50,663 bases of DNA from a virus. A program made the position numbers and the translations under genes. This document shows positions 3,831 through 48,882 of this stretch, in pieces. The first letter of the stretch is position 1. Each line of letters opens with the position of its first letter. Under the pieces are notes generated by a model. That model had not been told where the DNA came from and did not search any database. It was given only the letters and a program-made list of their open reading frames with translations. Where the stretch lies: IMG/VR virus record IMGVR_UViG_3300002907_000003, positions 1 to 50,663 of that record. One strand, 5' to 3'.

Positions 3831-3836
3831 TTTGTT

Positions 3837-4394: not shown

Positions 4395-4420
4395 ACTATA
4401 TTTTCCTTTTAAAAATTTAT

Positions 4421-7135: not shown

Positions 7136-7933
7136 TTACCCACCAATTTTTTTGGCGATTGTTTGAGTTGTCATAGAAAATTGTGCGATATTTCCTTGTA
7201 TTCTTAATCTATTAACTCCCGGAACTAATCTCAAAAAATGTTTATTGAATTTTGATAATCTTTTCAATCCAGTTGAAGAAGATATTGTTTGTAAACTATT
7301 ATCTATAGTAATTACTTCATTAGCAGAAAGGGCGGTAAAAGTAAACATTCTATTATTATCATCAAGATTTGTTATATTTATATTTCCACCAAAAGAATTA
7401 CAAGTAAGAATATTGGATGGATATAAATAAGAACCTATATCATCTGAAATATTATTAAAAGTAATTGTAGCATCAACAACAGGAACAACATAATTATACA
7501 CAACAGTTTTTGGAAAATTAAAAGCAAATGGAGCATTACAATTAACTGTAAATTTTACTCCTGTTAATAAATTACCAATTCTAACAATTTTTGGGTCATT
7601 TAATATTGCGTCAAAATAAACTAATTGCATATCATCTTCATCAATTTGAAGACGTTGATATGTTCTACTAGAAAAAAAGACTTTTTGAATTAATTGAAAA
7701 AAATCAGCATCAATTTCTTCGTTACTAAAAGCTGTCATTTCAAAAGATAAAACTGGAGATGGAGTTGCACCATAAAAAAATGGTGTTGCCCGTCTATATA
7801 ATTTTTGATTTAATATTTCCATTGAACTTGAACCCATTGATTCATTAACTGCTTGTGCATCTATATTGGAAATTCTTAGTCCATATAATTCCGAAGGAAT
7901 CCCCCCGTAGAGGAAAGAGCTACCATAAAACAT
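7136..7933 (-). CDS. Distal tail protein (Dit-like)
   Basis: This 265-residue product starts MFYGSSFLYGG and contains LYGLRISNID and QKLYRRATPFFYG, then FEMTAFSNEEID, resembling the N-terminal ring-forming domain of distal tail proteins. The length is normal for a minimal Dit. It sits between the tape measure and the tail-tip gene, which is the standard order. A clear GAAAGGAG ribosome binding site precedes the ATG. A 12-bp inverted repeat lies just upstream, after the tape-measure stop. Confidence 0.8.
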   Translation of the reverse strand: MFYGSSFLYGGIPSELYGLRISNIDAQAVNESMGSSSMEILNQKLYRRATPFFYGATPSPVLSFEMTAFSNEEIDADFFQLIQKVFFSSRTYQRLQIDEDDMQLVYFDAILNDPKIVRIGNLLTGVKFTVNCNAPFAFNFPKTVVYNYVVPVVDATITFNNISDDIGSYLYPSNILTCNSFGGNINITNLDDNNRMFTFTALSANEVITIDNSLQTISSSTGLKRLSKFNKHFLRLVPGVNRLRIQGNIAQFSMTTQTIAKKIGG

Positions 7934-11760: not shown

Positions 11761-12765
11761 TTAAGTAAATGCTTCATCTGACATATCCTCATCATCACGA
11801 ATAACATATAATTCACTTGTTTGTGATGATTCATGTCCTAATAATTTTTGAACTACTTTTATATCGCGTCCCTGTTCTACTACTAAACTCGTAGCACGTG
11901 ACTCTCTCAAAATATGTGGGTGAAATCTTCTTCCCAATAATTTTGTAAAAATTGTTGTTCCCCATAAATTTAAAGTTGCCGGATTCAATTGTTTGACAAC
12001 ATGGTTATGTTTTGATACAAAAACATATGGACAATCATCATTTCCTCTAATTTCCATCCATTTTTTAATTGCCAACATAGATTCTTCATCAAATTGAAAA
12101 ATTCTAATCTTACCGGCTTTTCCTTTTCCTTTACATCTAATTTTTCCAGTTAAATAATACGTGGCAGTTTTTATAATTTCATTTCCATTTTCATCTTTTA
12201 CTTTTATTTCTTTTTCTTGTTTTTCTGCATTAATAACTTCTTTTAAAAGCTGAATAGATTCTGCTCTTCTACATCCGGTGCTAAAAGTAAATTTTAAATA
12301 TGCTAAATGTTGCCACATTTCTAATTTTTCTAATTCTTTACACATTAAAGAATATTCTTCAAGAGTGGGAGGATTTTTTTCATTTACAAAAGCAGATGTG
12401 GGTGCAGATATTTTTTTAGTTATATAAGACCTAAAATTTAATTCTTCATAATATGTTTCAATATATGAGTTTAAAGATGAAACAGCCGCACGTTTTAATC
12501 TAACAGCAGAAGAAGAGAGTCCTCTTCTTGTCAAATAATTTTGATATAAAAGAAAATCTTTACTTTTTATTTTATCAAAATCTTTATCTTCACAATTATC
12601 TTTAATATAACAAAAATATATACGAAGTGCAGATGTATATTGTGACAAAGTTTGGTCAGATAATTGAATACTTTCTTTTAAAAATTCTTCCACTATTTTT
12701 CTATTTTTTTGATTTATAGATGCCCATTGAACATCTGTAACTTCAGGTATTTTTTCAACTGTCAT
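11761..12765 (-). CDS. Tyrosine recombinase / integrase family protein
   Basis: This 334-residue protein has a SAM-like N-terminal core-binding domain (SDQTLSQYTSALRIYFCYI) and a catalytic domain. Catalytic residues are visible as R166 in STGCRRAES, H284 and R287 in HPHILRESR, H311 in KLLGHESS and tyrosine Y320 in TSELYV. These enzymes cut and rejoin DNA through a phosphotyrosine link. It could integrate the phage or resolve genome multimers. Its location is odd: it is inserted between tail assembly genes and the tape measure, after RusA and a homing endonuclease. It overlaps the endonuclease gene by 11 bases and has a GAGGAG binding site inside it. No attachment site was identified. Confidence 0.9.
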   Translation of the reverse strand: MTVEKIPEVTDVQWASINQKNRKIVEEFLKESIQLSDQTLSQYTSALRIYFCYIKDNCEDKDFDKIKSKDFLLYQNYLTRRGLSSSAVRLKRAAVSSLNSYIETYYEELNFRSYITKKISAPTSAFVNEKNPPTLEEYSLMCKELEKLEMWQHLAYLKFTFSTGCRRAESIQLLKEVINAEKQEKEIKVKDENGNEIIKTATYYLTGKIRCKGKGKAGKIRIFQFDEESMLAIKKWMEIRGNDDCPYVFVSKHNHVVKQLNPATLNLWGTTIFTKLLGRRFHPHILRESRATSLVVEQGRDIKVVQKLLGHESSQTSELYVIRDDEDMSDEAFT

Positions 12766-13399
12766 TATTAATTGCTCCTCTATTTGGATAATCTTCTGGA
12801 AAATTTAATGGATGAGGCAAATTATTATTTATTATATATTCATCATATGCTTTTGCCGCATCAATTTCTGTATCATAAATTCCAATGTGTATTGATTTAT
12901 TATTTAATTTTAATGAGGCTCTCCAATATTTTTCATTTTTAAAAGAAACACCCCTATAAATAGATTTATATTTTATATTTGAACTTCTTTTTTTTGGGAC
13001 TTTCATTCTTAATTTTCTTTCTTCTGAAAGATTTTTACCAAAAAGTGCCTTACGAATATTTTCTTTTGTTTCTTGGGATGGAATCCATCCCAATGAACCT
13101 TCTCCTCCGTCAGTTAAATTATAACCATTTGGAGATTTGGTATTGAATTTTTTAATATAATAAATTTCTTTTTTTATTAGTTCTTCTCTTTCACATTTTT
13201 TAATTATATAAAATTTAAAATTATTTTCTCCATATTTATTCCAAGCATTTTGTAAATAATTATTTACATGTTTATTATTTTTTAAATTAAATTTATGAGA
13301 ATTCCATCTTCCAATTATATCTAAACCTTTTCCAATATATTTTTTATTATTAATTAAATTTTCAATACAATAAATTCCAATTATTTTATTAATTCTCAT
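12755..13399 (-). CDS. Free-standing GIY-YIG homing endonuclease with one AP2-like domain
   Basis: This 214-residue protein has a GIY-YIG domain at ~8-95 (IGIYCIEN, then KYIGKGLDIIGRWNSHK, NAWNKYGENNF and KKEIYYIKKF). A NUMOD3-like segment follows (PSQETKENIRKAL). The C-terminal AP2-like domain reads SIYRGVSFKNEKYWRASL, then HIGIYDTEIDAAKAYDEY. It is a shorter relative of the protein at 2907-3830. The gene overlaps RusA upstream and the recombinase downstream by 11 bases each, so it is tightly wedged but leaves both intact. An AAGGA site precedes the ATG. Confidence 0.9.
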   Translation of the reverse strand: MRINKIIGIYCIENLINNKKYIGKGLDIIGRWNSHKFNLKNNKHVNNYLQNAWNKYGENNFKFYIIKKCEREELIKKEIYYIKKFNTKSPNGYNLTDGGEGSLGWIPSQETKENIRKALFGKNLSEERKLRMKVPKKRSSNIKYKSIYRGVSFKNEKYWRASLKLNNKSIHIGIYDTEIDAAKAYDEYIINNNLPHPLNFPEDYPNRGAINNDS

Positions 13400-25132: not shown

Positions 25133-25164
25133 TAAACAAAAACTCTCTTTATTACAAGAGAGTT
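25133..25164 (-). terminator. Intrinsic terminator at the end of the EDxHD-type endonuclease gene
   Basis: The minus strand has a 9-bp stem AACTCTCTT / AAGAGAGTT with a 6-base loop and a TTTGTTT tail. The endonuclease TAA lies in the hairpin. It would isolate the endonuclease from the capsid genes, or let only part of the promoter's output reach them. Confidence 0.7.
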
Positions 25165-26072
25165 GTTTTTAATATATTTTCTATATTATCAAAATTCCAA
25201 TACGGAATCCTAATAAGTTTTATATCATTATCTTTACAATATTTTGTTTTTATTTTATCATTTTTCTTTGTTTTTTTAAATTCTATTGGTTTATTGAATT
25301 TATCTTTATAATGAAGAATTCCATCATATTCTATTAAAATATTTAATTTTGAAATATAAAAATCAAATGAAAGAATGCGAATATTTTTGCAATTTTTAAA
25401 ACCTTTATATTGTGTTTCAAATTTTATGTTATTATTTAATAAATATTCTGATATTCTTTTTTCACCTTTTGATGAAGCACAATTTGGACAATTTTTTCCA
25501 GAAGTTCTATTGGAAATTTTACATATCCATTTATATCCACAATCTTTGCAAATCCAATTTTTATATTTATGTGAACCTATTGTAAAATCCTTTGGAATTC
25601 CAGTATTTTTATCATAATTCCATTCAGAAGAAATTTCTGGAAATTTTATTTCCAAATTATTATGATTTCCATTTATTCTCCATAAAGTTTTACATTTACA
25701 TAAACCTCTTCCTGAACGAATATAATCAAAACATATGTAAAATTCTTTTTTACAATTATTGCATAAAAATTTTAAATTCTTTTTTTCTGTAGAAATATAT
25801 TCTCCAGAAATATATGTTATAAGAATATTATTATTTTTTATATATAGTAAAACATTATATAAAGAATAAGGATTATATTTTGCAAACTCATATAATTTAC
25901 AATTTCTTTTTATTTGAGTTTTAAAATTGGTAAATGTTGTACTATATTTATATCCATATTTATCTATAATATTTAAATAATCTTTTGTTGTATTATATTT
26001 TTTATCAATCAAAAAATAATATTTATTTTTTTCTATGATTGATTTTACTTCTTGATATGAAAATTTTCCCAT
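25152..26072 (-). CDS. Zinc-ribbon plus EDxHD/VSR-like endonuclease (free-standing homing endonuclease)
   Basis: This 306-residue protein has zinc-ribbon modules in the middle: LKFLCNNCKKEFYIC, a CKC pair, then NWICKDCGYKWICKIS and GKNCPNCASSKGEKRI. This is the DUF4379-like layout. A VSR/EDxHD-like nuclease domain makes up the last ~90 residues, with E in GEKRISEYL, D in LSFDFYI and E-Y-D with H in ILIEYDGILHYK. Such enzymes act as homing endonucleases in phages. It starts 34 bases after a folded RNA element driven by a perfect consensus promoter and ends in a terminator. A relative lies on the plus strand at 47953-48882. Confidence 0.8.
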   Translation of the reverse strand: MGKFSYQEVKSIIEKNKYYFLIDKKYNTTKDYLNIIDKYGYKYSTTFTNFKTQIKRNCKLYEFAKYNPYSLYNVLLYIKNNNILITYISGEYISTEKKNLKFLCNNCKKEFYICFDYIRSGRGLCKCKTLWRINGNHNNLEIKFPEISSEWNYDKNTGIPKDFTIGSHKYKNWICKDCGYKWICKISNRTSGKNCPNCASSKGEKRISEYLLNNNIKFETQYKGFKNCKNIRILSFDFYISKLNILIEYDGILHYKDKFNKPIEFKKTKKNDKIKTKYCKDNDIKLIRIPYWNFDNIENILKTTLL

Positions 26073-36635: not shown

Positions 36636-36707
36636 AGCTACCAGCAGAAATTGAATCCACAAGACCTAATTACAAGTTAGGCATTTTACCAGTTAAATTA
36701 TGGTAGC
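36636..36707 (-). tRNA. tRNA-Thr (anticodon UGU)
   Basis: A cloverleaf is visible: 7-bp acceptor GCTACCA / TGGTAGC and anticodon stem CCTAA / TTAGG with loop CTTGTAA, giving anticodon TGT. The T-arm has a TTCAATT loop. The CCA is not encoded. It is read from the minus strand between the HNH endonuclease gene and a terminator. Confidence 0.85.
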
Positions 36708-36718
36708 AAAAGAAAAAA

Positions 36719-37342
36719 TTATTTTTTTCTATTAGTTCTTCCATTTCCTTTATTTTTTGCTTTAAAAGTTGGAAGAAGAGCATCACAATTATTGCAAACA
36801 TATCTAAGATTATTTGGAAAATTATTATTATGATTTCCGTCTATATGGTCAACAACAACGGGAATTTCAACATCATTCCAATTTTCTAATTCGCAAATTG
36901 AACATTTTTTATCAATATTTATTTTTCTAAAAAATCTTCTTGCTTCTTCGTCGTTCATTTCTCCAGCATTATATCTAGGTAAATTTTTTAAAAAACTATC
37001 TTTTTGATTTTTTTCAGCTTGACATTTTGTATTACAATATTTTCTATCACTTCTTCCATTTATTTTTTTACCACAATTTATACAAAAAGAATCTTTTCTT
37101 CTTTGAATATAAATTTTTATGTTTTTATTAGAATAACTTGCTCCACAACTTTGAGAACAATAAGTATTAACTCTTTTTTCATAATCAATTGGTTTATTGC
37201 ATTCTAAACATAATTTTGGATTATTTTCGTATTTATTTTTTGCTTTTAATCCATTTTCAATTGTTAAATTTCTTCCAATTTTTAATTTATCATTTGCTCT
37301 TTTTCTGCTTGCTTTTGATTTATATCTTCCTGAACTTTTCAT
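36719..37342 (-). CDS. HNH endonuclease with zinc-finger modules
   Basis: This 207-residue protein has basic N-terminal segments (KSSGRYKSKASRKRANDK) and several CxxC knuckles (LCLECNKPI, YCSQSCGAS, FCINCGKKI, KYCNTKCQAE). A C-terminal HNH nuclease fold reads KCSICELENW, then VVVDHIDGNHNNNFPNNL and YVCNNCDALLP. The DH and NN residues form the metal-dependent active site. It lies within a tRNA island, where free-standing homing endonucleases are common. No intron core is seen beside it. Confidence 0.88.
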   Translation of the reverse strand: MKSSGRYKSKASRKRANDKLKIGRNLTIENGLKAKNKYENNPKLCLECNKPIDYEKRVNTYCSQSCGASYSNKNIKIYIQRRKDSFCINCGKKINGRSDRKYCNTKCQAEKNQKDSFLKNLPRYNAGEMNDEEARRFFRKINIDKKCSICELENWNDVEIPVVVDHIDGNHNNNFPNNLRYVCNNCDALLPTFKAKNKGNGRTNRKK

Positions 37343-37370
37343 TTTTTATTTTCCCATAATCCCACAAATA

Positions 37371-37405
37371 TAATTAAAAAGAAAGAAGCCGGGGATTCGG
37401 CTTTT
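37371..37405 (-). terminator. Intrinsic terminator after tRNA-Met
   Basis: The minus strand carries a GC-rich stem AAGCCG / CGGCTT with loop AATCCC, followed by CTTTCTTTTT. It lies about 38 bases after the tRNA-Met gene. It would make the tRNA-Met a short separate transcript. Confidence 0.8.
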
Positions 37406-37442
37406 CGATTGGTTCATGACTTCCAATCTATCTATCTTTTAG

Positions 37443-37513
37443 TTGCGCGAGCAAGAATCGAACTTGCGGCAAGAGGTTATGGGCCTCCTGTGTTACCACT
37501 ACACCATCTCGCA
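37443..37513 (-). tRNA. tRNA-Met (anticodon CAU)
   Basis: The acceptor TGCGAGA pairs with TCGCGCA except for one A/G mismatch. The anticodon stem GGAGG / CCTCT holds loop CCCATAA, giving anticodon CAT. Position 33 is C instead of the usual T, as in some initiator-like tRNAs. The T-arm GCAAG-TTCGATT-CTTGC is perfect. Methionine is most likely; a lysidine-modified isoleucine tRNA cannot be excluded. Confidence 0.75.
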
Positions 37514-37523
37514 TCGTAAAAAC

Positions 37524-37552
37524 ATGTTATCATATAAACATGATTTTGTCAA
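37524..37552 (-). promoter_or_regulatory. Sigma-A-type promoter for tRNA-Met
   Basis: The minus strand has TTGACA (37547-37552), 17 bases, and TAACAT (37524-37529) with an extended -10 TG. It sits between the terminator at 37556-37582 and the tRNA-Met, so the tRNA forms its own unit with terminator on each side. Confidence 0.75.
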
Positions 37553-37555
37553 GAG

Positions 37556-37582
37556 GTTAAAAAGGACTCTATAAAGAGTCCT
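37556..37582 (-). terminator. Intrinsic terminator after the exonuclease gene
   Basis: The minus-strand stem AGGACTCT / AGAGTCCT with loop TTAT is followed by TTTTAACC. It lies about 90 bases after the exonuclease stop and abuts the tRNA-Met promoter. Confidence 0.82.
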
Positions 37583-37669
37583 CTCTAACAAATATATTTA
37601 ATTTCCCCCATATTTATAATAAATAGAAACAATAAAAAATAAATTCTTAATAAATATAGAAAAATTTAT

Positions 37670-38578
37670 TTAATTTTTTAATAAATTTTCTTTTTTAAAT
37701 TTAGACAAAATATTTTTTCCATATCTATGTAAAGAACCGCATTTATCACATCTCAAAGATTCATACATTCCTTGACCTGAAGGATATTTTCCTTCATTTG
37801 TAAATTCTGTTCCCAAACAATTAGGACATTGTTTTGTTTCCAAATTATTGTGTCTGGCAAGATTTGGGTGATTTGGAATGAATCCCCTAAGTTTGTAATA
37901 CAAAGTTTCTGTAGCTATAACATCACCCACATTATAAGAAAGCATCGTATTCAGGGACTTGTCATCCCCATTAGAACAGGCTATCCATAAAGGAAAACCA
38001 TCATTATCAATTTTATTTCTAATACCTAATTTTTTATTTATTTCAGTTAATTTATTTGAAGTAAATCTGAAATTATTTCTAGCTACTTGTAAAGTATCTA
38101 TGGTCAAATATTTTACTGGTTTTGCATACATCAAAAAATAATTATTTAAAGTTTTTCCATCATAATTAAGAAAATTATGTCCAATTATTATATCACATGA
38201 ATTAACAAATTCAAATGCAGATAAAGAAATTCTTTCTGGATTTCTATTTATGGCTTCTTCTGATGTCAGAATATCTGAATATATTTTATTTGAATTCAAA
38301 TATTTTCCAGCCCAACTAAGAAGACATAAATCTTCTATCATTTGTTCTCCACCTAGATATTGTTCTCTCATTCCCCATGAATAAAATTTAGCCGGTAAAT
38401 TTTCTATATCCATCACGCCAATTTTAAAAGTATCAGTTTTTGCATTTACTTCAAAAAATTCTACAGGAATGGAATCCCATGTACCACAATCTTGACATTC
38501 TATTCTTTTTTTTGTTCTGGATTTATTAAATCCTCTTTGTTGAATATTTTCTGAACTACATTCTTTGCAGGTAATCAA
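37670..38578 (-). CDS. DEDDy-type 3'-5' exonuclease with zinc ribbons
   Basis: This 302-residue protein has an N-terminal zinc ribbon (ITCKECSSENIQQRG, then IECQDCGTW). An RNase H-like exonuclease core (~50-235) follows, with D/E in GVMDIENLPAKF (Exo I), D in IIGHNFLNYDGKTL (Exo II) and YNVGD (Exo III, YxxxD). A C-terminal zinc ribbon completes it (KQCPNCLGTEF, then LRCDKCGSLHRYG). It is therefore a DnaQ/PolB-exo-like nuclease without a polymerase domain. It is co-directed with the tRNA cluster. It may process tRNA ends, degrade host DNA or act in replication; the substrate is not fixed by the sequence. Confidence 0.82.
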   Translation of the reverse strand: MITCKECSSENIQQRGFNKSRTKKRIECQDCGTWDSIPVEFFEVNAKTDTFKIGVMDIENLPAKFYSWGMREQYLGGEQMIEDLCLLSWAGKYLNSNKIYSDILTSEEAINRNPERISLSAFEFVNSCDIIIGHNFLNYDGKTLNNYFLMYAKPVKYLTIDTLQVARNNFRFTSNKLTEINKKLGIRNKIDNDGFPLWIACSNGDDKSLNTMLSYNVGDVIATETLYYKLRGFIPNHPNLARHNNLETKQCPNCLGTEFTNEGKYPSGQGMYESLRCDKCGSLHRYGKNILSKFKKENLLKN

Positions 38579-38594
38579 TTTTATCTCCTAATTT

Positions 38595-38619
38595 GGATAT
38601 GTTATAAAAATACATATCC
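38595..38619 (-). other. Hairpin between tRNA-Asn and exonuclease gene
   Basis: An 8-bp stem (GGATATGT and its complement) surrounds a 9-base AT loop. It lies about 25 bases after the tRNA-Asn 3' end. With no clear U-tract on the minus strand, it may mark a processing site rather than a terminator. Confidence 0.45.
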
Positions 38620-38644
38620 CCCTAATTACATTTCCCACATTTAG

Positions 38645-38716
38645 CTGGCACGACAGGACTTGAACCCATATGACGATATTAACAGTATCGCATCTTGCCT
38701 ATTAGATGACACGCCA
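38645..38716 (-). tRNA. tRNA-Asn (anticodon GUU)
   Basis: The acceptor TGGCGTG pairs with CGTGCCA, with two G·U pairs. The anticodon stem CGATA / TATCG holds loop CTGTTAA, giving anticodon GTT. T-loop TTCAAGT is present and the discriminator base is G, as expected for Asn. Confidence 0.88.
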
Positions 38717-38733
38717 AAATTTATTTATTACAG

Positions 38734-38808
38734 TCAGTGTAGCAGGATTTGAACCTGCGAACCTCGCCGCCCCAAACGGCTTGCTCTACCGAACTGAGCT
38801 ACACACTG
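38734..38808 (-). tRNA. tRNA-Pro (anticodon UGG)
   Basis: The acceptor CAGTGTG pairs with TACACTG. The D-arm GCTC / GAGC is perfect. The anticodon stem GCCG / CGGC holds loop TTTGGGG, giving anticodon TGG with the usual G37. The T-arm GCAGG-TTCAAAT-CCTGC is perfect. Discriminator A fits Pro. Confidence 0.9.
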
Positions 38809-38830
38809 ATATTTATTTTTTTTCTTACAA

Positions 38831-38904
38831 GTCCAGTTATAGGAACTCGAATCCTAATTTGCAGGGTGAAAACCTGCCGTCATGACCTTTAGACCATAAC
38901 CGGA
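38831..38904 (-). tRNA. tRNA-Glu (anticodon UUC)
   Basis: The acceptor TCCGGTT pairs with AACTGGA. The anticodon stem GCAGG / CCTGC holds loop TTTTCAC, giving anticodon TTC. The T-arm TAGGA-TTCGAGT-TCCTA is perfect. CCA is not encoded. Confidence 0.88.
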
Positions 38905-38907
38905 TAG

Positions 38908-38978
38908 AGCAGGTAAAGGGAATCAAACCCTTATCATCAGTTTGGAAAACTGAGGCACAATCAATATACCATACCCGC
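38908..38978 (-). tRNA. tRNA-Gly (anticodon UCC)
   Basis: The acceptor GCGGGTA pairs with TACCTGC. The anticodon stem TCAGT / ACTGA holds loop TTTCCAA, giving anticodon TCC. The T-arm AAGGG-TTTGATT-CCCTT is perfect. It is the first tRNA after the promoter at 39016-39044 and lies three bases from tRNA-Glu. Confidence 0.88.
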
Positions 38979-38983
38979 ATTTA

Positions 38984-38999
38984 GGTCTATTTCTAGACC
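38984..38999 (-). other. Small hairpin before the tRNA array
   Basis: GGTCTA and TAGACC surround a 4-base loop, six bases before the tRNA-Gly 5' end and within the presumed leader of the promoter at 39016-39044. It may aid 5' processing of the tRNA precursor. Confidence 0.4.
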
Positions 39000-39015
39000 C
39001 ATTTATATTCTCTAA

Positions 39016-39044
39016 ATTCTACCACATTATGTTATTTTTGTCAA
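39016..39044 (-). promoter_or_regulatory. Sigma-A-type promoter for the tRNA array
   Basis: The minus strand has TTGACA (39039-39044), 17 bases, and TAGAAT (39016-39021) with an extended -10 TG. It overlaps the intergenic space after the holin-like gene and faces the Gly-Glu-Pro-Asn tRNA array and exonuclease gene. Confidence 0.85.
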
Positions 39045-39050
39045 GGGATA

Positions 39051-39350
39051 TTATTTATCAAGTTTATCTTGTTGATGAAATAATTGTCCCAAATAGTAAA
39101 CACCAAAAATTGAACTAATAATCATAAATATAGGTGTTGCAATTGTCATAAAAGCATCAGTTGCATATGTCAATATCAAATATGCTCCAACACCAATTGC
39201 GGCACTTCCCAAGAACGATAAAAATTGTTTTTGGGCTGAATTATATTTTGTTTGAAACCAGTTCCATCTTTCGACTAAAAAAGATACAACGGCCACACTT
39301 CCACCACCGAAAGCAAGAAATTGCAAAAATCCAATTAAAGTTATATTCAT
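39051..39350 (-). CDS. Holin-like membrane protein
   Basis: This 99-residue protein has three hydrophobic segments: LIGFLQFLAFGGGSVAVVSF, FLSFLGSAAIGVGAYLILTY and IATPIFMIISSIFGVYYLG. It has a short polar C-terminus (FHQQDKLDK). Size and topology suit a holin, which makes inner-membrane holes at lysis. However, the lysozyme gene is ~9 kb downstream, so the pairing is inferred. GGAGG precedes the ATG and a promoter lies just after the stop. Confidence 0.6.
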   Translation of the reverse strand: MNITLIGFLQFLAFGGGSVAVVSFLVERWNWFQTKYNSAQKQFLSFLGSAAIGVGAYLILTYATDAFMTIATPIFMIISSIFGVYYLGQLFHQQDKLDK

Positions 39351-39376
39351 TTTTCCTCCTATTTTTTAAAACATTA

Positions 39377-39691
39377 TTATGAAACCATTATTGTATAATT
39401 TCTCGGTACAAGACCACCAGCATTTCCCGATGTATAAGTCCATGTTATATCAGGATAAATTTTTACATGCTCCCATTTTTGCCAATCATAAGGATATGTT
39501 GGATATGTTGGATATGTTGGATATGTTGGATAAACATATGGTCTATCAACATAAATAGTTTCTTTTTCTGGTTGAATGCCCAACAGATTAGTCAAAGCTT
39601 CTTGTAATTCTATTGCTTGTTCAACCGTCAATTCAGCTTCTTTATTTCCTATCTTTATTGTTATTTTAGATATTTGTACATCTTTATTCAT
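39377..39691 (-). CDS. Hypothetical protein with Tyr-Pro-Thr repeat
   Basis: This 104-residue protein has an N-terminal region with KITIKIGNKEAELTVEQAIE, then LQEALTNLLGI, which looks like a small helical/beta domain. A YPT tripeptide repeat follows (four full units, then YPY), and the C-terminus reads WTYTSGNAGGLVPRNYTIM. The repeat is encoded by identical 9-bp units. No family recognised; a structural linker is plausible. Confidence 0.55.
   Translation of the reverse strand: MNKDVQISKITIKIGNKEAELTVEQAIELQEALTNLLGIQPEKETIYVDRPYVYPTYPTYPTYPTYPYDWQKWEHVKIYPDITWTYTSGNAGGLVPRNYTIMVS
39492..39530 (-). repeat. Tandem 9-bp repeat (Tyr-Pro-Thr codons)
   Basis: Four exact copies of GGATATGTT (plus strand) and a partial fifth lie in frame in the hypothetical gene at 39377-39691. 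Exact copies suggest recent slippage expansion. Confidence 0.9.
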
Positions 39692-39729
39692 TTTTAAATC
39701 TCCTTAATATTAATAAAAAACCAATTTTA

Positions 39730-40008
39730 TCAAGGTTTTATTTCTGTAGTTTGTTCTGAAACTTCTTCTATACTTTCAGATTCTTCGTTTTCATCATTAA
39801 GCATATGATACATTCTATGGTCGAATTCTGCTTCGGCTGTTTCACTTGTAAGAGCAAGTGTTTCTAAAATAACCATTCCGGCTTTTGCCATAAGTAAAGG
39901 GATATTGTCAGACATGAATCCTTGAGGCCATGATTCTTCGCCAAAATTTGCTTCACACCATGTTTCTAAAGTTTGAGCTAAATCTGATTCTAATTTTGGA
40001 TGTAACAT
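39730..40008 (-). CDS. Small acidic hypothetical protein
   Basis: This 92-residue product reads LHPKLESDLAQTLETWCEAN, then LLMAKAGMVILETLALTSE, and ends in an acidic tail with several glutamates. It looks helical. Its start codon overlaps the stop of the HU-like gene, suggesting coupling. A weak AAAACC / GGTTTT hairpin with a T-run follows the stop. No family recognised. Confidence 0.55.
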   Translation of the reverse strand: MLHPKLESDLAQTLETWCEANFGEESWPQGFMSDNIPLLMAKAGMVILETLALTSETAEAEFDHRMYHMLNDENEESESIEEVSEQTTEIKP

Positions 40009-40385
40009 TATTTATTCTCCATTTCTGAAATCGCAATATCATTTGCTTTACTTTTAATTTTTCTTTTTTCTGGACTTCTCAAAAGGTCACGTAAATTTTG
40101 ACCCAATTGTACTACTGCACGTTTACCGGCAGGAAAATCTTGGTAAATTGTTTTTCCTTGTAAACGACTTTCTCTTGCATTTACACCTTTTCTAGCTGGT
40201 AAAATTTGTATATAAAGATGCATTAAGCCTCTAATATCTATATCAATTCCGTTTTCAATTGATTCGGCAAATATGTCTTCAAATGTTTTCAGAAATATTT
40301 TTGCATCATTGACTGTAAAGCTTCCTCGTTCGGCAAGCATTTGTATAAATTGGTCACGGTCAATAAAATTTGTATTTTTAGTCAT
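40008..40385 (-). CDS. HU/IHF-like DNA-binding protein
   Basis: This 125-residue protein resembles the HU/IHF family: an N-terminal helical dimer part (DRDQFIQMLAERGSFTVNDA, then FLKTFEDIFAESIENG) followed by IDIRGLMHLYIQILPARKG. The saddle-strand region contains ARESRLQGKTIYQD with PAGKRAVVQLGQNL. It has a longer, basic C-terminus than HU. Phage HU-like proteins compact DNA or assist replication and packaging. It is coupled to the following 92-residue gene. Confidence 0.72.
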   Translation of the reverse strand: MTKNTNFIDRDQFIQMLAERGSFTVNDAKIFLKTFEDIFAESIENGIDIDIRGLMHLYIQILPARKGVNARESRLQGKTIYQDFPAGKRAVVQLGQNLRDLLRSPEKRKIKSKANDIAISEMENK

Positions 40386-40421
40386 TTTTTACTCTTCTCC
40401 TACCAATATATAATGGGGTAC

Positions 40422-41204
40422 TTAACTTTCGCCATTTTTCACAAGTCTTTTTTTAGATTCGAGTTTAATTTTATTTAAATATGTTTTATAACATTCTATA
40501 CAAAAATCATGTTTTTTAGATTTTACTATTTCTTTTCCACATTCTACACAAAAATATTGTATAAAAGAAGTTATATTGTTTATATCTGTAATCACCATAA
40601 AATGTTTTCCTTTATCATCGGCAAAATTCAGTTTAAAACTTTTATCACTAAAAAGATTTGTTTCGATAAACCCTCTAATACCATCTAATTCATATTTTAT
40701 TCTATTAGATTCTTTTTCTGTAGGATGAGAAAATCCAGCAAAATATAATACAAAATTGAAATCCATATTTAAATAATAAGCATGACTTTTTCTTTTTATT
40801 TCTTTTATTCTAGCCGTAGAAAATTTTTGAAGTCTAGCCAAAACTATCATGGTAAAAAGAATTCGATATAATTTATGAGGTAATTTTTTTATTTTTTCTA
40901 TTTCAGAAACATAAACTGGTATATTCATTGTTCCCGATTTTAATTTATACATTTTTGATTTTCTTATGGATTTATTTATCATGTTTTGATAAATAACAGG
41001 ATTGAAATATTCATCCTCATTCTTACAAAAATCAATTATCATATTGTAAATAGTCTTATCTTTATGACCTTGCATATGAAAATATTTACTCAACAAACCT
41101 AATTCATAATTGTTTATTACATGACCAGTAAAGCCATATTTAATTATCTGGTTAGATTTACTTATTTCGTCCAGTATCGGGAGTCTCTTTGGCAATGGAA
41201 TCAA
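40422..41204 (-). CDS. Hypothetical protein with C-terminal zinc finger
   Basis: This 260-residue protein begins with helices (PILDEISKSNQIIKYGF), then YFHMQGHKDKTIYNMIIDF and LPHKLYRILFTMIVLARLQ. It ends with two CxxC pairs (FCVECGKEI and FCIECYKTY) likely binding zinc. The N-terminus overlaps the methyltransferase end by 47 bases. A DNA-replication or transcription role is plausible. No family recognised. Confidence 0.55.
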   Translation of the reverse strand: MIPLPKRLPILDEISKSNQIIKYGFTGHVINNYELGLLSKYFHMQGHKDKTIYNMIIDFCKNEDEYFNPVIYQNMINKSIRKSKMYKLKSGTMNIPVYVSEIEKIKKLPHKLYRILFTMIVLARLQKFSTARIKEIKRKSHAYYLNMDFNFVLYFAGFSHPTEKESNRIKYELDGIRGFIETNLFSDKSFKLNFADDKGKHFMVITDINNITSFIQYFCVECGKEIVKSKKHDFCIECYKTYLNKIKLESKKRLVKNGES

Positions 41205-41877
41205 TTCTCCTTTTTGCTATCTTATATTTTATTTTATCATATTCAATACCAATAACATTTCTATTATTTTTTAATCCCCAAGAAATTGTTGTACCTGAAC
41301 CAACAAATGGGTCAACTATTAAATCACCTTCATCGGTATATGGAAGTAAAATTCTATCCATAAGTTTTAAAGGTTTTTGCCATTCTACAAGTTTTCCGGT
41401 TTCAGGATTAGATATGCGTTCTTTGGCAACAGTGGTTAAACAAATATCGTCTATCCAAGCTGTTGCTTTTTTTGTTATTCTTCCCGAGGGATTCAATCTC
41501 TTAGAACCTGTGGTTGCTTTTGGGACTTGAATCCTGTCAGGATAAAATTTATAATTTGAACCTTTACAATAAATGAGTATGTCATCATAGCATTGATGAA
41601 ATTTATTAGATGGAGAACGCCCCCATTCGTTTTTCCATACAAGATGATTTAAAAATGTTGCGCCATTGATTTCATCTTCCATATAAACCCTGAATCTATG
41701 TTGACTATGAAAATCAGTCATGGCAATAAATATTCCGCCATCTTTTAACATGTCATAATAATGGTCTACCCAATTAAAATCAAGGTTTTCATATATATAA
41801 TCAGCAAAGATAATATCAACTGTTTTACTGTCTCTATTGAACTTCATATTGTCCATGTTCAAAAGTTTGTAAGTCAT
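41158..41877 (-). CDS. DNA methyltransferase, N4/N6 beta-like class
   Basis: This 239-residue protein has motif IV early (VDIIFADYIY, where ADYIY replaces the usual DPPY) and FxGxG motif I late (IVDPFVGSGTTISWGLK). This permuted order is that of beta-class amino methyltransferases. A middle region reads NEWGRSPSNKFHQCYDDIL then IYCKGSNYKFYP. It would transfer methyl groups from S-adenosylmethionine to adenine or cytosine amino groups, possibly to protect phage DNA. The altered motif IV leaves activity uncertain. No partner restriction gene is seen. It overlaps the polymerase exon 2 by 44 bases. Confidence 0.8.
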   Translation of the reverse strand: MTYKLLNMDNMKFNRDSKTVDIIFADYIYENLDFNWVDHYYDMLKDGGIFIAMTDFHSQHRFRVYMEDEINGATFLNHLVWKNEWGRSPSNKFHQCYDDILIYCKGSNYKFYPDRIQVPKATTGSKRLNPSGRITKKATAWIDDICLTTVAKERISNPETGKLVEWQKPLKLMDRILLPYTDEGDLIVDPFVGSGTTISWGLKNNRNVIGIEYDKIKYKIAKRRIDSIAKETPDTGRNK

Positions 41878-42949
41878 TTATTCTAAATTCCTTTTCTGAG
41901 TAATTTTTATTGAGAAAATTTATTTTTCCCATATGGTCTAAAATTGGAACAATTATTTTTCTATTGGAATTTGAGAGCATATTATTTATAATGCCCTCCC
42001 CGAACAGGCTCCAACACATTTCACTTTGAGAATTGTTTTGATAACAAACTCGAACAGCAAGATTTGCTAGTTCATTTATATTAGAGGATATATTAAACAA
42101 GGCTTTATTTTTTATTGCCGCCGCCATTTGTTCAAAGTTTTCATAATCGCTGGTTTCATAAGTTTTTCTTTTAAAGGATTTATATTCTTTATATAATTCT
42201 TCCATTTTTTCCAGTTTTATTTTATTTAATGAAATGTTTTTATCAATATATATATTAAAATCAAAATTAAAATCTTTTTTCAATGAAATTTTATATTCTT
42301 TTATCTGATTTGAAATATATTTATAAACTTTATCCATAATTCCATTTGAATTAATTAAAAATGGAATATATTTAACATATTTTTCATATATTTCTTGTTC
42401 TTTTTTATGTCTTTTTTTAGATAATAAAACATCTAATCCATATCCAAATTTAGATTGACAATAATTTTCATAAATTTTATTATATTTTTTATATTCATTC
42501 ATCTTGTGAGGGTAAAGATAGGTCATCCAAAGAGGACGTTTATCAATAATAATTTTATTTTGAATATTTATCTGTTCTATCTCTTGTAATGTCATGGAAG
42601 ATTTCAACTTAATCCATCTCCCCCATTCCGGTATTTTCTTGGTAATGATTCCTTTTTGTTTATCTATTTCATTACCTTGTAGTTTACGACATATTTTTAA
42701 TCTTTCCATAATCATTTTATATTCAATAGAATCTTTTTCAAATAATGAAAGCATTGAATATAATGTTGTGGATTGATTTGTTATAAGTCCAATCTTTGAG
42801 CCAAAAGAATTGATGTCTGATAAAGCCAGATTATTATTTTCTATAATTCCTTTTGGTGCAGATTTTTTTTCATATGATATTGGCAATCCATTGGATGTGC
42901 CTTGAATAAAAACATCATTATCTGTTGTGAATAAAATATCGAAATCAAA
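41834..42949 (-). CDS. Single-subunit RNA polymerase (YonO-like), exon 2
   Basis: After splicing, this exon contributes 371 C-terminal residues. It opens FDFDILFTTDNDVFIQGT; with the last codon of exon 1 this gives DFDFD, a DxDxD metal-binding loop like DFDID or DxDGD of the YonO/QDE-1-like and crAss-phage polymerases. Helical stretches follow: LSDINSFGSKIGLITNQSTT, then FEKDSIEYKMIMERLKICR and QGNEIDKQKG. The exon's first base is 42949; an in-frame ATG farther in (MPISYE) is not the real start. The methyltransferase gene overlaps its end. Confidence 0.82.
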   Translation of the reverse strand, partial: FDFDILFTTDNDVFIQGTSNGLPISYEKKSAPKGIIENNNLALSDINSFGSKIGLITNQSTTLYSMLSLFEKDSIEYKMIMERLKICRKLQGNEIDKQKGIITKKIPEWGRWIKLKSSMTLQEIEQINIQNKIIIDKRPLWMTYLYPHKMNEYKKYNKIYENYCQSKFGYGLDVLLSKKRHKKEQEIYEKYVKYIPFLINSNGIMDKVYKYISNQIKEYKISLKKDFNFDFNIYIDKNISLNKIKLEKMEELYKEYKSFKRKTYETSDYENFEQMAAAIKNKALFNISSNINELANLAVRVCYQNNSQSEMCWSLFGEGIINNMLSNSNRKIIVPILDHMGKINFLNKNYSEKEFRINDLQTFEHGQYEVQ

Positions 42950-43954
42950 CTTTTATACCCTCGGTTTCCCGATATTTTTAAGGGGAATAGACTATATCTT
43001 TATCCAATTCAAAATTGGATATTTGGCATTTCCTAAGAATGAGTTTCACATTCAAAGTACGGTTTTCACCTAGTCGTTACATGTTCTATTTTCATAGCTT
43101 CACACGGTATTTACTTTATTGATTTATTTTATTTTTATTCTCTTTATTGGCAAAAGAAAATAAAAACCCTCTATATAAAACTTTATTATTTATCATTGTT
43201 GATAGTCTATTTTGAACACTTTTAACCTTTTTAGCTCTCACAATTTTTTTCTCAATCAAAAATTCAGCACAATGTTTTACAGTTAAAAATGTCTCAATAA
43301 TTATATTATCTTTTATCATATCTACTGGTTTTGCCTTAGGATTATTTTCATAAGTTATGTTTCTATGATTCTCAACCCATTGATTGTATTTTTCTTCGCT
43401 CATTCTTTCTTTTGGTGAGACACCAAATTGAGAATTTTTATCACCAGTAACAGAAACACTTCTATTTTTCAACCATTGTTCATATATTTCTGGAGTCATT
43501 CTTTCTTTTGGAGATACTCCGTACATTGGATTATTTTCACCTCTTAAAACTGGAAAAAATTTTCCACCCGGAGAAATATTGCATTGTGCTTGATTTATTT
43601 CTTTATATTTTTCAATATAATAGATTTCTCTTTCATAAGCAACATCTTCATCCAAATTATCTTCTAGGATTTTATAATCACAATCATATTTATTATAATA
43701 TCTCATAAAATATATATTTCTTCTATTTAATCTTTTTGCTCTTCTTCCAGAACCTTTTCCTATGTAAAAAACATTATCTGTTTCTTTATTGAACCAAGCA
43801 TAAACATAATGTTTATTCAAACCCATATCCTATCTGCCAATATTTAAAATCAATTTTAGTATTCCACCGTTAGCAGTATTTCTACCACACCTTATATTTA
43901 TAAGTTAACCAAATTTTTTATTATACATTACTGTATAAGGAGACAGTGTTGTTC
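42950..43954 (-). mobile_element. Group I intron with GIY-YIG endonuclease, in RNA polymerase active-site codons
   Basis: P1 is exact: exon GGAGAT pairs with intron GTCTCC, with U·G at the splice site after 43955. A P3/P4-like CTAACGGTGGAATAC segment precedes the endonuclease gene. After it come the P7 strand GTAACGACTA at 43071-43080 and its partner AAGATATAGTC near 42989-42999, with a P8-like helix between them and a P9-like segment after. The last base is G (42950). The endonuclease lies in a peripheral loop before P7. The 1,005-nt insertion is in frame to restore one 912-residue polymerase after splicing. Confidence 0.9.
43116..43826 (-). CDS. Intron-encoded GIY-YIG homing endonuclease
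   Basis: This 236-residue protein has a GIY-YIG-like domain at ~5-95 (KHYVYAWFNKETDN, then VFYIGKGSGRRAKRL and EREIYYIEKY). Two NUMOD-like repeats follow (ENNPMYGVSPKERM and DKNSQFGVSPKERM). A C-terminal NUMOD1/DNA-recognition-like part reads IETFLTVKHCAEFLI. The enzyme would cut intronless polymerase genes and copy the intron into them. It lies wholly inside the group I intron and does not disturb the predicted core. Confidence 0.9.
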   Translation of the reverse strand: MGLNKHYVYAWFNKETDNVFYIGKGSGRRAKRLNRRNIYFMRYYNKYDCDYKILEDNLDEDVAYEREIYYIEKYKEINQAQCNISPGGKFFPVLRGENNPMYGVSPKERMTPEIYEQWLKNRSVSVTGDKNSQFGVSPKERMSEEKYNQWVENHRNITYENNPKAKPVDMIKDNIIIETFLTVKHCAEFLIEKKIVRAKKVKSVQNRLSTMINNKVLYRGFLFSFANKENKNKINQ

Positions 43955-45577
43955 ATCTCCATCACCATAAAGCATCATGTCAATACCATGAATATTGAAA
44001 ACAATACCGCTTTTCAAATGACCATACCATTTATCAATTTCATTATTTCTAATTAGATTGAGAGTATTCATTTCACTTTTCCAAGTAAGAGGACTTCTGC
44101 CCGATGCAACTTTGAAAATATTTTGTTCTATCCAATAAGAAGAATAGTGTTCATGTTCTTCTAACAATCCTTTTACTGGTAAATTAAAAGCATGTTGACA
44201 TAAAGCAAATGGGTCACTAATACAAACTTGATAATTACCATTTATCAGTAATCCACCAGTATATGATTCTCTTATTTTCTTATTTAGTGTTCTAGAAATA
44301 TATTGTTTAATAAAATAATCTTTTGATGAATTTTTATTTATAAGTAATGCTTTTATATAATTATTATCAATTGATTTCCATTGAGTTTCATCAAATTTTT
44401 CTATAGATGTTCCCATTAAATAAAGAAGTGATTTTTCTGGAGACTCGAAACTTATTTCTTTAAAGTATTGAATAGTGTCATTGCACAAATATTCAATATC
44501 TTTATTATCAATATCTAAAACTTGAATATATTGATAAGATGACCAGAAATTTTTCTTTTCTTCTTTTGGGGTTTGACGAGAGATTCCCCAAGAAAGATTA
44601 TTTGATTCACAATTTGTTTTATAGTTTTCTAAATTAGAATAAGAACTCCATAGCTTAAATTGAGAAGCTGTAAGTATGCAATCTATATCGTTCACATTAT
44701 GTAAATTACCCCATACATCAATTATATTTTCCACATTATATTCTTTTGCAAATCCATGAATATCAAAAGATACACATTGACCCTTTAAAAATGAACCTCG
44801 AATACAAAAAGAATTTGGAATATAATCTAATTCCATTTCACTTGACCATATCTTGGAAAATTCTAATGATATAATTCCCTGCCCATCAAATATATTTTGA
44901 ACAATCGGAATATTCCTTTTTTCAACATGGTCTATTTTGTTTTCATCTTCATAAACAAAATCAACATTTCTATTTTTTGTTATTTCATAATCTGGAACTA
45001 CAACAAATCTAGGTGCTGTAACTTTATGTGTTGCACTGGCATATAAAGCAAAATATGAATTAAACTTATTAATATTTAATTCAATATCTTTATTTCTTCC
45101 ATTGTCAAATATGTTTATTAATTTTTTACAAATAGACTCTTCTGCGAAAATAGATGTGTTACGCCTCGCATGTCCAGCCCCCGTAAGTAGACGAATATAC
45201 TTCTTATTATTTATAAATAATCCTTGTTTAATTATTTGTTTGTAATGTGCCACATTATTAAAATGAATAGATATAATATCAGGAACAAATAATATATCTT
45301 CTAATTCTTTATTTATTTCAAAGATTCTATTTCTATTTATTTTAGAATCTTTTTCTTTTTTTAATGTTCTTTTTTCTTGCAACAATTCATCAATATGATA
45401 TTGTGAAAATTCTATATCGTTTATTCTTCGATAAGTTCTCAATAGTTCTGAATCAGCCAGTGAAATAATTTCATTATTTTTCAACGCTTCTTCATATGAA
45501 ATTTGTATTGTATAGTTTGAATTTTTCAAACGCTCTGATGTAAATTTCATGATGGAAAACTGTTGAAGTTTTTTCAT
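43955..45577 (-). CDS. Single-subunit RNA polymerase (YonO-like), exon 1
   Basis: This exon encodes 541 residues. The pattern is that of the two-barrel RNA polymerases related to YonO and QDE-1: RLLTGAGHARRNTS, later NIFDGQGIISLEFSKIW, then YIPNSFCIRGSFLKGQCVSF, matching the first double-psi barrel. It ends NIHGIDMMLYGDGD at the splice site, where the last D is the first of the catalytic triad. The full protein is 912 residues, the size of SP-beta YonO. It would transcribe phage genes, probably late ones, from DNA. Without splicing translation stops after EQHCLLIQ and no active enzyme results. Confidence 0.86.
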
Positions 45578-45582
45578 TATCT

Positions 45583-45771
45583 TTATTCATCAACTTCTTC
45601 GTCAACAAATTTTCTCTTGTCTTTCATTTTATTATAACTCATTTCATTCCAAATCACATTTCCATTTTTATCTTCTTTGTAATTTAAATTATTCCAATCT
45701 TCATAGCCAATTAAATCTTCATCTTCTTCATCAAAATCATCATCTATTTCATCAACATAATATTCATTCAT
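45583..45771 (-). CDS. Small acidic hypothetical protein
   Basis: This 62-residue product is very acidic (DEIDDDFDEEDEDLIGYEDW) followed by a less acidic part (NVIWNEMSYNKMKDKRKFVD). It lies five bases before the polymerase start. Acidic proteins of this kind may mimic nucleic acid or bind a polymerase; this is only an inference. No family recognised. Confidence 0.5.
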   Translation of the reverse strand: MNEYYVDEIDDDFDEEDEDLIGYEDWNNLNYKEDKNGNVIWNEMSYNKMKDKRKFVDEEVDE

Positions 45772-45782
45772 ATTAAAACCTC

Positions 45783-46208
45783 CTACCTTGCAAAGTCATA
45801 AATAAAGGGACAGTTATCAGATTTTCTTACTCCCCAATTAACAGGAGTAGGAATCCATAAATCATTCAAATTATATTTTAGCATCATTTCAATTATTATC
45901 TCTCGTTCTCTATCGGTTCTTCTTCCACGTTTAAGTTCTTCCTTGATAACAGCAACCCACCCATTTTTACTACTATCATAATTAACAATAACACCAAAAT
46001 ATTTTTTATCTTTTTTATTTATTTTTTTATATAATCGAATTTCTTGTCGTGATTGATTGCCTTCATCATTCAATTTTACAATTATCTTTCCGTCTGTATA
46101 ACAATGTCTTCCTGATTGAATGCCTCCCGTATGAGACATGTGTTTTGCTTTTTTGCCATTTATAAATACATTATTAAAATCATCAACAATAATCTTTGGT
46201 TTTTTCAT
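45783..46208 (-). CDS. Mini protein-kinase-like protein
   Basis: This 141-residue protein shows pieces of a kinase N-lobe and ends at a DFG-like motif. A Gly/Ser loop (SHTGGIQSGRHCY) is followed by K45 in KIIVKLND and E56 in SRQEIRLY. A hinge-like WVAVIKEELKRGRRTD follows, and the end reads VNWGVRKSDN with YDFAR as the last five residues. The catalytic HRD aspartate is not clear. It is about half a normal kinase and resembles the product at 47287-47721. Its ATG overlaps the upstream stop (ATGA). Confidence 0.5.
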   Translation of the reverse strand: MKKPKIIVDDFNNVFINGKKAKHMSHTGGIQSGRHCYTDGKIIVKLNDEGNQSRQEIRLYKKINKKDKKYFGVIVNYDSSKNGWVAVIKEELKRGRRTDREREIIIEMMLKYNLNDLWIPTPVNWGVRKSDNCPFIYDFAR

Positions 46209-47952: not shown

Positions 47953-48882
47953 ATGACAAAAAAATTAACAATAGAATACTGTAAGAAAAAATCTAAAGAA
48001 AAAGAATATATATTGTTAGAAAATATTTATTTGAATGCTCATACGAAAATGAATTTTCAACATGTAAAATGTAAGTATATATTTTCGATGAAATGGAATA
48101 ATTTTAATTCTGGAGATAGATGTCCGAATTGTCAACGCAAATCAGTTGGATTTAAAAAAAGATTAAAAATAGAAGATTGTAAAAAAATAGCTTTCAATAG
48201 AGGATTTAAATTATTGAACAATATTTATATCAACAATAAAACAAAAATGGAGTTCGTTCACATTGATTGTGGATTTAAATTTTTAAAAGGGTGGAGTAAT
48301 TTTCAATCAGAAAAAGGTTGTCCAAAATGTTCTGGTAAAATTAAATTGAGCATTGAATTTTGTCAAAAAGAATCTTTCAATCGGGGTTATCAATTGCTTT
48401 CTAAAAAATATAAAAATAATAAAACAAAAATGAATTTTAAACATATTGAATGTCAATCTAATTTTTTGATGAATTGGACTAATTTCTATAATGGTAAAAG
48501 AGGTTGTCCAACATGTGATTCCAGTCTCGGAGAGTTAGAGATAAAAAAATATTTAAAAATATGGAAAATAAAAAATTATCATGAATATTATGGATTTAAA
48601 GAATGTCGAGATAAAAAAGTTTTACCATTTGATTTCTATATAAAAAAATATAACATCTGTATTGAATATCAAGGAAAACAACATTTTGAACCTATACAAT
48701 ACACATATTCAATAACTATAGAACAAGCTAAGAAAAATTTAAGAATACAAAAAAATCATGATAAAATAAAAAGAAAATTCTGTAAGAATAATAATATCAT
48801 ATTGCTTGAAATAAGATATAAAGATTTCAATAATATAGAAAATATTTTATATAATAAAATAGAGGAAATTAAAAATGGATAA
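47953..48882 (+). CDS. Zinc-ribbon plus EDxHD/VSR-like endonuclease (plus strand)
   Basis: This 309-residue protein has three repeated zinc-ribbon-like modules of about 65 residues (each with a stretch like C..ES.N.GY.LL..Y.NNKTKM.F.H..C). CPNCQRKS, CPKCSGKI and CPTCDSSLGE separate them. A C-terminal EDxHD/VSR-like nuclease domain follows (SLGELEIKKYLKIW, then LPFDFYIKKYNICIEYQGKQ and LEIRYKDFNNIENI). It is a relative of the minus-strand endonuclease at 25152-26072. A GAGAGGAG site precedes the ATG. It overlaps the helicase start by eight bases. Confidence 0.82.
   Translation: MTKKLTIEYCKKKSKEKEYILLENIYLNAHTKMNFQHVKCKYIFSMKWNNFNSGDRCPNCQRKSVGFKKRLKIEDCKKIAFNRGFKLLNNIYINNKTKMEFVHIDCGFKFLKGWSNFQSEKGCPKCSGKIKLSIEFCQKESFNRGYQLLSKKYKNNKTKMNFKHIECQSNFLMNWTNFYNGKRGCPTCDSSLGELEIKKYLKIWKIKNYHEYYGFKECRDKKVLPFDFYIKKYNICIEYQGKQHFEPIQYTYSITIEQAKKNLRIQKNHDKIKRKFCKNNNIILLEIRYKDFNNIENILYNKIEEIKNG

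Follow-up and report, generated by a model that had tools for sequence, protein, structure and literature searches.

The window examined here, the whole of a 50,663-nucleotide (nt) stretch of viral DNA (IMG/VR record IMGVR_UViG_3300002907_000003, positions 1 to 50,663), carries on its minus strand, from 45577 to 41834, a single gene for a 912-amino-acid (aa) YonO-like RNA polymerase, interrupted by 1,005 nt (43954..42950) within the codons of its DxDxD catalytic triad. Judged from its sequence features, the insert is very probably a mobile, self-splicing group I intron with a homing endonuclease gene, placed after the codon for the first aspartate (Asp) of the triad.

Exon 1 (43955..45577, minus strand, 541 codons) runs through the first triad Asp, its DNA ending in TATGGTGATGGAGAT and its protein in ...YGDGD at a GAT codon; it matches phrog_8308 (E 3e-94) and, in tblastn, phage BUCT082 (40% identity over 99%). 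Exon 2 (41834..42949, minus strand, 371 codons plus stop) starts with TTTGATTTCGATATT and, in protein, with FDFDI; it holds the second and third triad Asp and the motif NEIDKQKG, and matches phrog_35857 (E 1e-29) and BUCT082 (30% over 99%). The intron site is at 43955/43954, directly 3' of the first triad Asp codon. When the exons are joined the frame stays open for 912 codons up to a stop, reading YGDGD-FDFDI with the loop DFDFD, while an unspliced message would give a 549-aa product, with an in-frame stop after 8 intron codons, just past the first Asp. A hidden Markov model (HMM) built from 19 intronless relatives, the window excluded, was run on L002 (L numbers are our locus designations), an identical IMG/VR copy of the window: exon 1 occupied columns 5-548 (658 bits) and exon 2 columns 549-918 (314 bits) with no gap between them, and because intronless relatives thus place both exons edge to edge, the insertion is not a chance arrangement. 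In BUCT082 both parts lie in one uninterrupted open reading frame (ORF) and their tblastn matches abut (3272-4909 and 4910-6031). Among phage records, exon 1 found 35, including YonO of SPbeta phages, and exon 2 found 3 (BUCT082, MT835481 and PMBT24); megablast of window 37000-46000 against phage records gave no near match.

The gene product is assigned to the YonO-like (QDE-1-type, two-barrel) single-chain RNA polymerases, its fold being taken from the model of a relative. In an alignment of 58 intronless relatives, picked from 69 non-redundant ones, residues D550, D552, D554, D646 and K649 (L012 numbering) are invariant, and the joined window protein carries them as the DFDFD triad and as the D and K of NEIDKQKG, the counterpart of the IDxAK motif of the family. 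A profile of the relatives finds RDR2 (E 7.5e-6) and QDE-1 (E 0.004); in these alignments the triad falls on DxDGD of both proteins and the second motif on VDFAKT of RDR2, each single stretch scoring low (<17 bits). The structure search was made with intronless L012, 50% identical to window exon 1, folded in place of the window protein: its AlphaFold model (mean predicted local distance difference test score, pLDDT, 92.7) matched RDR2 (Foldseek E 1e-19; Z 24.1, 622 residues, 8.9 Å), QDE-1 (Z 18.5, 642 residues, 4.6 Å) and the RNA polymerase of crAss-like phage phi14:2 (Z 8.8). These results bear out an earlier prediction from the letters of the window alone (the sequence-only reading), which had named a YonO-like two-barrel enzyme. 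A search for PF05183 in the window's own genome gave no match anywhere and the controls gave none either, which makes it uninformative.

Two readings would dispense with a functional intron. According to the first, the polymerase is naturally split into two proteins, with an unrelated endonuclease gene between them; PHROGs does divide the family near the junction (phrog_25339, phrog_35857), and yonO of phage phi3T is annotated in two pieces. Yet the first possible start in exon 2 is a TTG 21 codons in, past the triad, one and two Asp of a single catalytic triad would sit on different chains, the joined frames align without a gap to intronless relatives, and an intron core and P1 are present (see below), so that this arrangement is scarcely credible. 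According to the second, the gene is a degraded, non-functional polymerase with a dead insertion, as the frame breaks in its relative L017 might suggest. Against this, the reading frame is open in both exons right up to the junction, neither the triad nor the second motif is damaged, the intron core pairs, and an identical 12,709-bp stretch occurs in another IMG/VR contig, though perhaps from the same sample; we consider it very unlikely. The open exons, gap-free joined frames, intact motifs and pairing core led us to reject both.

Anatomy of the intron and its open reading frame

The group I intron (42950..43954, minus strand, 1005 nt; last base G, at 42950) is supported by its P1, P3, P5 and P7 helices, by covariation, and by the empty site in BUCT082. 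All positions below are on the minus strand. P1 is formed by GGAGAT at the end of exon 1 (43955..43960) and the internal guide sequence GTCTCC (43939..43944), giving 6 bp that end in a U.G pair at the splice site, between the last T of the exon and the G of the guide. P2 is a hairpin read from the sequence (TTATACA-GTAA-TGTATAA, 43921..43938), the loop of which holds the TAA stop of unspliced exon 1. Covariation defines P3 (5' strand TTTGG, 43909..43913; 3' strand CCAAA, 43022..43026), the P5 hairpin CTTAT-AAAT-ATAAG (43891..43904) and the 5' strand of P7, GACTA, in the R element (43071..43075); the 3' strand of P7, TAGTC (42990..42994), lies in the S element AAGATATAGTC, and AAGATATAGTCTA has here its sole exact match in the window. 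Further S elements in the window did not exceed chance (6 matches with <=2 mismatches against 3.2 expected). The R and S elements are, we presume, as in T4 td. A P9 hairpin, CGG-GAAA-CCG (42962..42971), was read from the sequence and recurs in the same or a similar form in several other introns. The sequence-only reading had claimed a group I intron in the catalytic loop, directly after the first Asp codon and with DFDFD after splicing, and had named the GGAGAT/GTCTCC P1, the P7 halves and the final G; all of these are present, P7 being GACTA at 43075..43071 and TAGTC at 42994..42990.

Base pairing of the core was evaluated by covariation, which took the place of Rfam after a search at the gathering threshold, in 17 of the 19 introns of this gene family (L096 and L052b, the 5' core of which differs, were omitted). 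For P3, 84 of 85 cells are paired and the 17 introns show 15 distinct helices, whereas 20,000 partner shuffles gave a mean of 54.7 and a maximum of 71; P5 pairs in 85/85 (maximum 78 in 20,000 shuffles). P7 pairs in 85/85 cells as well, with three compensating versions (GACTA/TAGTC, GACCA/TGGTC and GATCA/TGATC), and its covariation is weaker, since the same count was reached in 12/20,000 shuffles; P7 taken alone is modest evidence. All three helices are complete in the window intron (5/5 pairs each). The 3' strands of P3 were located via a sequence anchor; L119 had two anchors, of which the pairing one was chosen, and L049b has the one mismatch. A MAFFT alignment of the intron 3' halves, which seemed to place L004 and L052 wrongly, was set aside.

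Several observations weigh against this interpretation. In the covariance-model search that the sequence-only reading had proposed, Rfam RF00028 matches the 3' half of the intron at only 21.9 bits (E 0.005); the gathering score of this model, a curation threshold and not a defining property, is 50. At gathering, nine loci searched with Rfam gave no group I match, and the ORF-less relatives L016 and L049 likewise score low with RF00028, below gathering. P1 has just 3 bp in L004, L116b and L069, and L049b as delimited lacks the terminal G; in L017 the beginning of exon 2 is disturbed by one base, and the frame is broken farther along. For the intron ORF, Pfam gives no GIY-YIG hit, and NUMOD3 only at 0.064, below the cut-off. 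As to the low Rfam scores, a published paper describes partial group I model matches as common in introns whose core is divided by a long loop with an endonuclease gene (PMC11878797). An intein was rejected because an in-frame stop occurs 8 codons into the insert. For group II, which was only considered, searches of the window at gathering and of the intron region up to E 10 listed no match. The first in-frame intron codon is a stop in 11 of the 19 introns; a review mentions early in-frame stops as a possible means of keeping ribosomes off the intron (PMC3984707).

Parts of the intron match 228 phage records at 80-95% identity, the last 50-60 nt being matched in the 20 rows listed, chiefly from Staphylococcus, Enterococcus, Listeria and Bacillus phages. 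The group I introns of these phages resemble the window intron in the part matched and differ from it in host gene, guide sequence and ORF.

The P6 loop contains an ORF of 236 aa (43116..43826, minus strand) that matches the homing endonuclease family phrog_314 (E 4.5e-11) and is 30% identical to two Enterococcus phage proteins annotated as homing endonucleases. Its assignment to the GIY-YIG class was made by eye only, from the motif YVY...FYIGKGSG. The C-terminal ~65 residues resemble HNH endonucleases of some other triad-zone introns (L051, E 5e-4; L052a, 8e-4; L116a, 0.025; L047, 0.25; set search space), with no match to those of L004 and L119, also in the triad zone, nor to L011, L127, L096 and L049b at other sites. 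A common target-binding part may thus be carried on different nuclease heads, though such domains are widespread and the E values modest. The triad-zone introns of L004, L047 and L051 encode HNH proteins according to Pfam, and those of L052 and L119 according to similarity to these three. Elsewhere in the window there are two more homing endonuclease genes (2907-3830 and 12755-13399, both minus strand; phrog_314, E 1.3e-24 and 1.2e-37) that also match a GIY-YIG PHROG, and three genes recognized by eye, namely two for proteins that have a zinc ribbon and a Vsr-like end, and one for a protein that is HNH-like (25152-26072, minus; 47953-48882, plus; 36719-37342, minus), which are perhaps homing endonucleases.

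Insertion sites across the polymerase family

A survey of 132 loci, redundant copies included, was made in 80 IMG/VR loci (the best 80 of 138 relatives), 43 GTDB contigs and 9 of 35 phage records; loci with an interrupted exon-1 scan motif would be missed by it, and L123, L128 and L134 stop short of the triad. Triad-zone introns were found in 11 of the 132 loci (10 distinct, L064 being a repeat of L047), at three positions within ~11 nt. With D1 and D2 for the first and second triad Asp, the intron follows D1 in L002 (the window copy), L016, L017, L047, L049 and L116, follows D2 in L004 and L051, and lies in phase 1 of the codon preceding D1 in L052 and L119. In eight loci (L011, L049, L052, L054, L069, L089, L096 and L116) the invariant D646 of the IDxAK motif, a second hotspot, is the site of an intron or is closely preceded by one, and three of these loci (L049, L052 and L116) have two group I introns per polymerase gene, one at each hotspot. 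In L127, a contig binned as Candidatus Gastranaerophilales, an intron (3518-4809) lies near the invariant K172 of an N-terminal motif, a third site; no intron at any further position was found among the 132 surveyed loci. Frame breaks in L050 and L110 (from coordinates), in L100, and the second break of L017 look like indels or nonsense changes and were not counted as introns. L038 has a weak extra N-terminal match, and in L054 a ROOL RNA (7164-7767, 268.8 bits) lies ~2 kb downstream of the intron-bearing polymerase gene.

A quickly made tree of 75 polymerases needed 9 changes to account for the triad label on its 10 labelled rows, and 8 changes for the 8 rows with the D646 label, so that the introns are scattered among intronless relatives. 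In the sister phages L004 and L049 the triad introns are 6 nt apart. Among the 108 intronless genes whose motif was picked up by a regular expression, 74 have GAT as the D1 codon.

IMG/VR was also searched with a DNA pattern combining one form of the intron 3' end with F-D-x-D codons, and all 14 stretches found were exon 2 of this polymerase family, a copy of the window (L141) included; the other 13 gave E values of 8.5e-6 to ~1e-109 against the family HMM in a single-sequence search. L149 and L151 are too short upstream; in the remaining 11 of the 13 the exon 1 match ends at a GAT, either in the D1 column or in the codon that follows, other upstream GAT codons being candidates as well in 6 of them. 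Grouped by eye, the pattern stretches form 8 lineages, 7 of them beyond the window, which brings the distinct triad-zone introns to 17 (13 after D1, 2 after D2 and 2 before D1). The corresponding pattern for the second hotspot, with [F/Y]-A-K-T codons, gave 30 polymerase stretches out of 30. Because both patterns presuppose the exon motif, they measure specificity and not the frequency of such introns elsewhere. A looser pattern gave 11 stretches, five from polymerases (L144, L148, L149, L150, and L153 on the contig of L049) and six unrelated. The general expectation of the sequence-only reading that mobile introns hit the most conserved codons is borne out by the 17 triad-zone introns and the second hotspot. 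Some of the triad-zone introns are short: those of L016, L017 and L049a measure 284-388 nt with no ORF >55 aa listed, and those of 4 of the 7 further lineages 291-473 nt.

The second hotspot is also occupied in a studied phage. In the record of the Bacillus subtilis phage phi3T (L135, KY030782.1) yonO is listed as a pair of genes, phi3T_60 and phi3T_59, between which we find an unannotated 400-nt group I intron at D646 (L135 3155-3554). Of 840 aligned positions, 781 agree between the joined phi3T protein and YonO of SPBc2, a phage with no interruption at this site. The whole 400-nt intron is present in nine phage records, and the phi3T/SPbeta hybrids Hyb1, Hyb2 and Hybphi3Ts also carry the intron; seven more rows cover 61% of it, including BUCT083, which has an annotated GIY-YIG gene under the match. 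The near-identical phages CB473P1 and PMBT24 differ in the presence of an intron at the D646 hotspot. The word "intron" is absent from the text of the YonO paper (PMC5467207), and searches of the open literature, with subscription journals outside their reach, found nothing relevant, judged by title among the papers listed, on an intron in yonO, nothing on an SPbeta/phi3T group I intron, no description of a triad/yonO intron hotspot, and nothing on an "aspartate triad" intron in a phage RNA polymerase.

Role of the intron and significance

The source is a large tailed phage, because a large IMG/VR viral contig (147,693 bp) is identical to the window over the 12,709 bp compared, and because the window contains portal and terminase genes; the window itself is part of a contig of 147,646 bp, one of 11 in a 3.4-Mb assembly. 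The portal and terminase genes are on the same strand as the polymerase gene and downstream of it, and a tape-measure gene, recognized by eye, is likewise downstream on that strand. Six tRNA genes (36636-38978, minus strand) lie upstream of the terminase gene. Near the polymerase gene is a gene for a DNA-binding HU-like protein, as also in BUCT082, PMBT24 and SPBc2. In the YonO paper the late genes of SPbeta are described as YonO-dependent and a triad mutant of YonO as inactive (PMC5467207), and the window polymerase probably transcribes late genes too.

Splicing, cleavage and homing, as we infer them, would proceed as follows. The intron RNA would fold with P1 formed on the exon and with its P3-P7 core, cut itself out and join GAT to TTT, restoring DFDFD and the 912-aa polymerase; the endonuclease presumably cuts intronless copies of the gene in co-infecting phages, the repair of which would copy the intron in. 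Two things would make the site a good target: any change to its codons would kill the enzyme, and the GAT codon of Asp supplies the U needed for P1. These introns are most likely selfish mobile elements aimed at unmutable codons, with the triad as a favourite target and not a special switch.

The sequence-only reading had proposed such a switch, a timing or stress checkpoint set by the need for splicing. Taken as a rival explanation, the phage would keep the intron for regulation, because splicing that is slow or depends on conditions would hold back the active late polymerase until the moment or the stress state is right. The unspliced product would indeed lack two of the three triad Asp and the rest of the protein, the triad mutant of YonO mentioned above was inactive, and L049, L052 and L116 even carry two introns in the polymerase gene. 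Against it stand the rarity of the triad-zone intron (11 of 132 loci), its three positions, which vary even between the sister phages L004 and L049, and the intron at the second hotspot, which differs between CB473P1 and PMBT24 and between phi3T and SPBc2 with their 781 matches in 840 aligned residues. A checkpoint is unlikely, and this part of the early proposal found no support, no search for regulatory elements having been made; the rarity, the shift between sisters and, at the second hotspot, the differences between near-identical phages suit an element that is mobile, gained in one phage and lost in another. For the window, L012 is the closest intronless relative that was found, at ~50% identity, and gain or loss of the window intron is therefore undatable.

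An addition to the reading as a selfish mobile intron, tentative and somewhat doubtful to us, is that the intron persists mainly as an interference weapon, in that its endonuclease would cut the late-polymerase gene of rivals, in the way that gp210 of phage phiPA3 attacks phiKZ. In this precedent a group I intron with the HNH endonuclease gp210 is described in the virion RNA polymerase beta gene of phiPA3, after two conserved Asp, and is reported to confer an advantage over phiKZ (PMC11620839). The presence of two endonuclease classes among the triad-zone introns, one GIY-YIG by its motif (window) and the other HNH (elsewhere), agrees with this use, while the several short triad-zone introns, probably cutting nothing themselves, speak against it. 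In both phiPA3 and the window, a mobile group I intron that encodes an endonuclease interrupts a phage RNA polymerase gene immediately 3' of conserved Asp codons; in phiPA3 the gene encodes a beta subunit of a multisubunit enzyme (site near E. coli RpoB D675) and the nicking of the HNH enzyme was tested, whereas in the window the site is the DxDxD of a single-chain enzyme and the ORF is GIY-YIG-type and known from sequence. With YonO of SPbeta and with BUCT082 the window shares the polymerase family, the invariant triad, the IDxAK motif and the nearby HU-like gene; it differs in that SPBc2 yonO and BUCT082 have no intron, and the phi3T yonO intron is at the second motif. Zeta crAss-like phages have RNA polymerases, of a related superfamily, with frame breaks within DxDxD, the motif interrupted in the window as well; the authors left the cause open, mentioning "additional, yet unknown expression mechanisms" (PMC7886860).

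The window element belongs to a known kind, the mobile group I intron; what gives it value is the recurrence at the hotspot, together with phi3T as a case open to testing. Group I introns repeatedly occupy two motifs that are among the most conserved in a phage polymerase family, and the general rule that introns sit in conserved codons gains a case with apparently many independent insertions within ~11 nt and two endonuclease classes. Since the phi3T and CB473P1 records list the polymerase gene as separate pieces, full polymerases of the family can be missed. We offer as a conjecture, rather less probable than otherwise, that phages contend with one another over the catalytic codons of their late polymerases, where GIY-YIG and HNH endonucleases, carried by related introns with re-aimed guides, converge on unmutable codons; introns in DxDxD and IDxAK would then be weapons that also tie late transcription to splicing, and the same mechanism may explain the DxDxD breaks of Zeta crAss-like phages, for which the window provides a testable reading. 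The phages phi3T, with an intron in yonO, and SPbeta, with none, make B. subtilis a laboratory system for this polymerase family.

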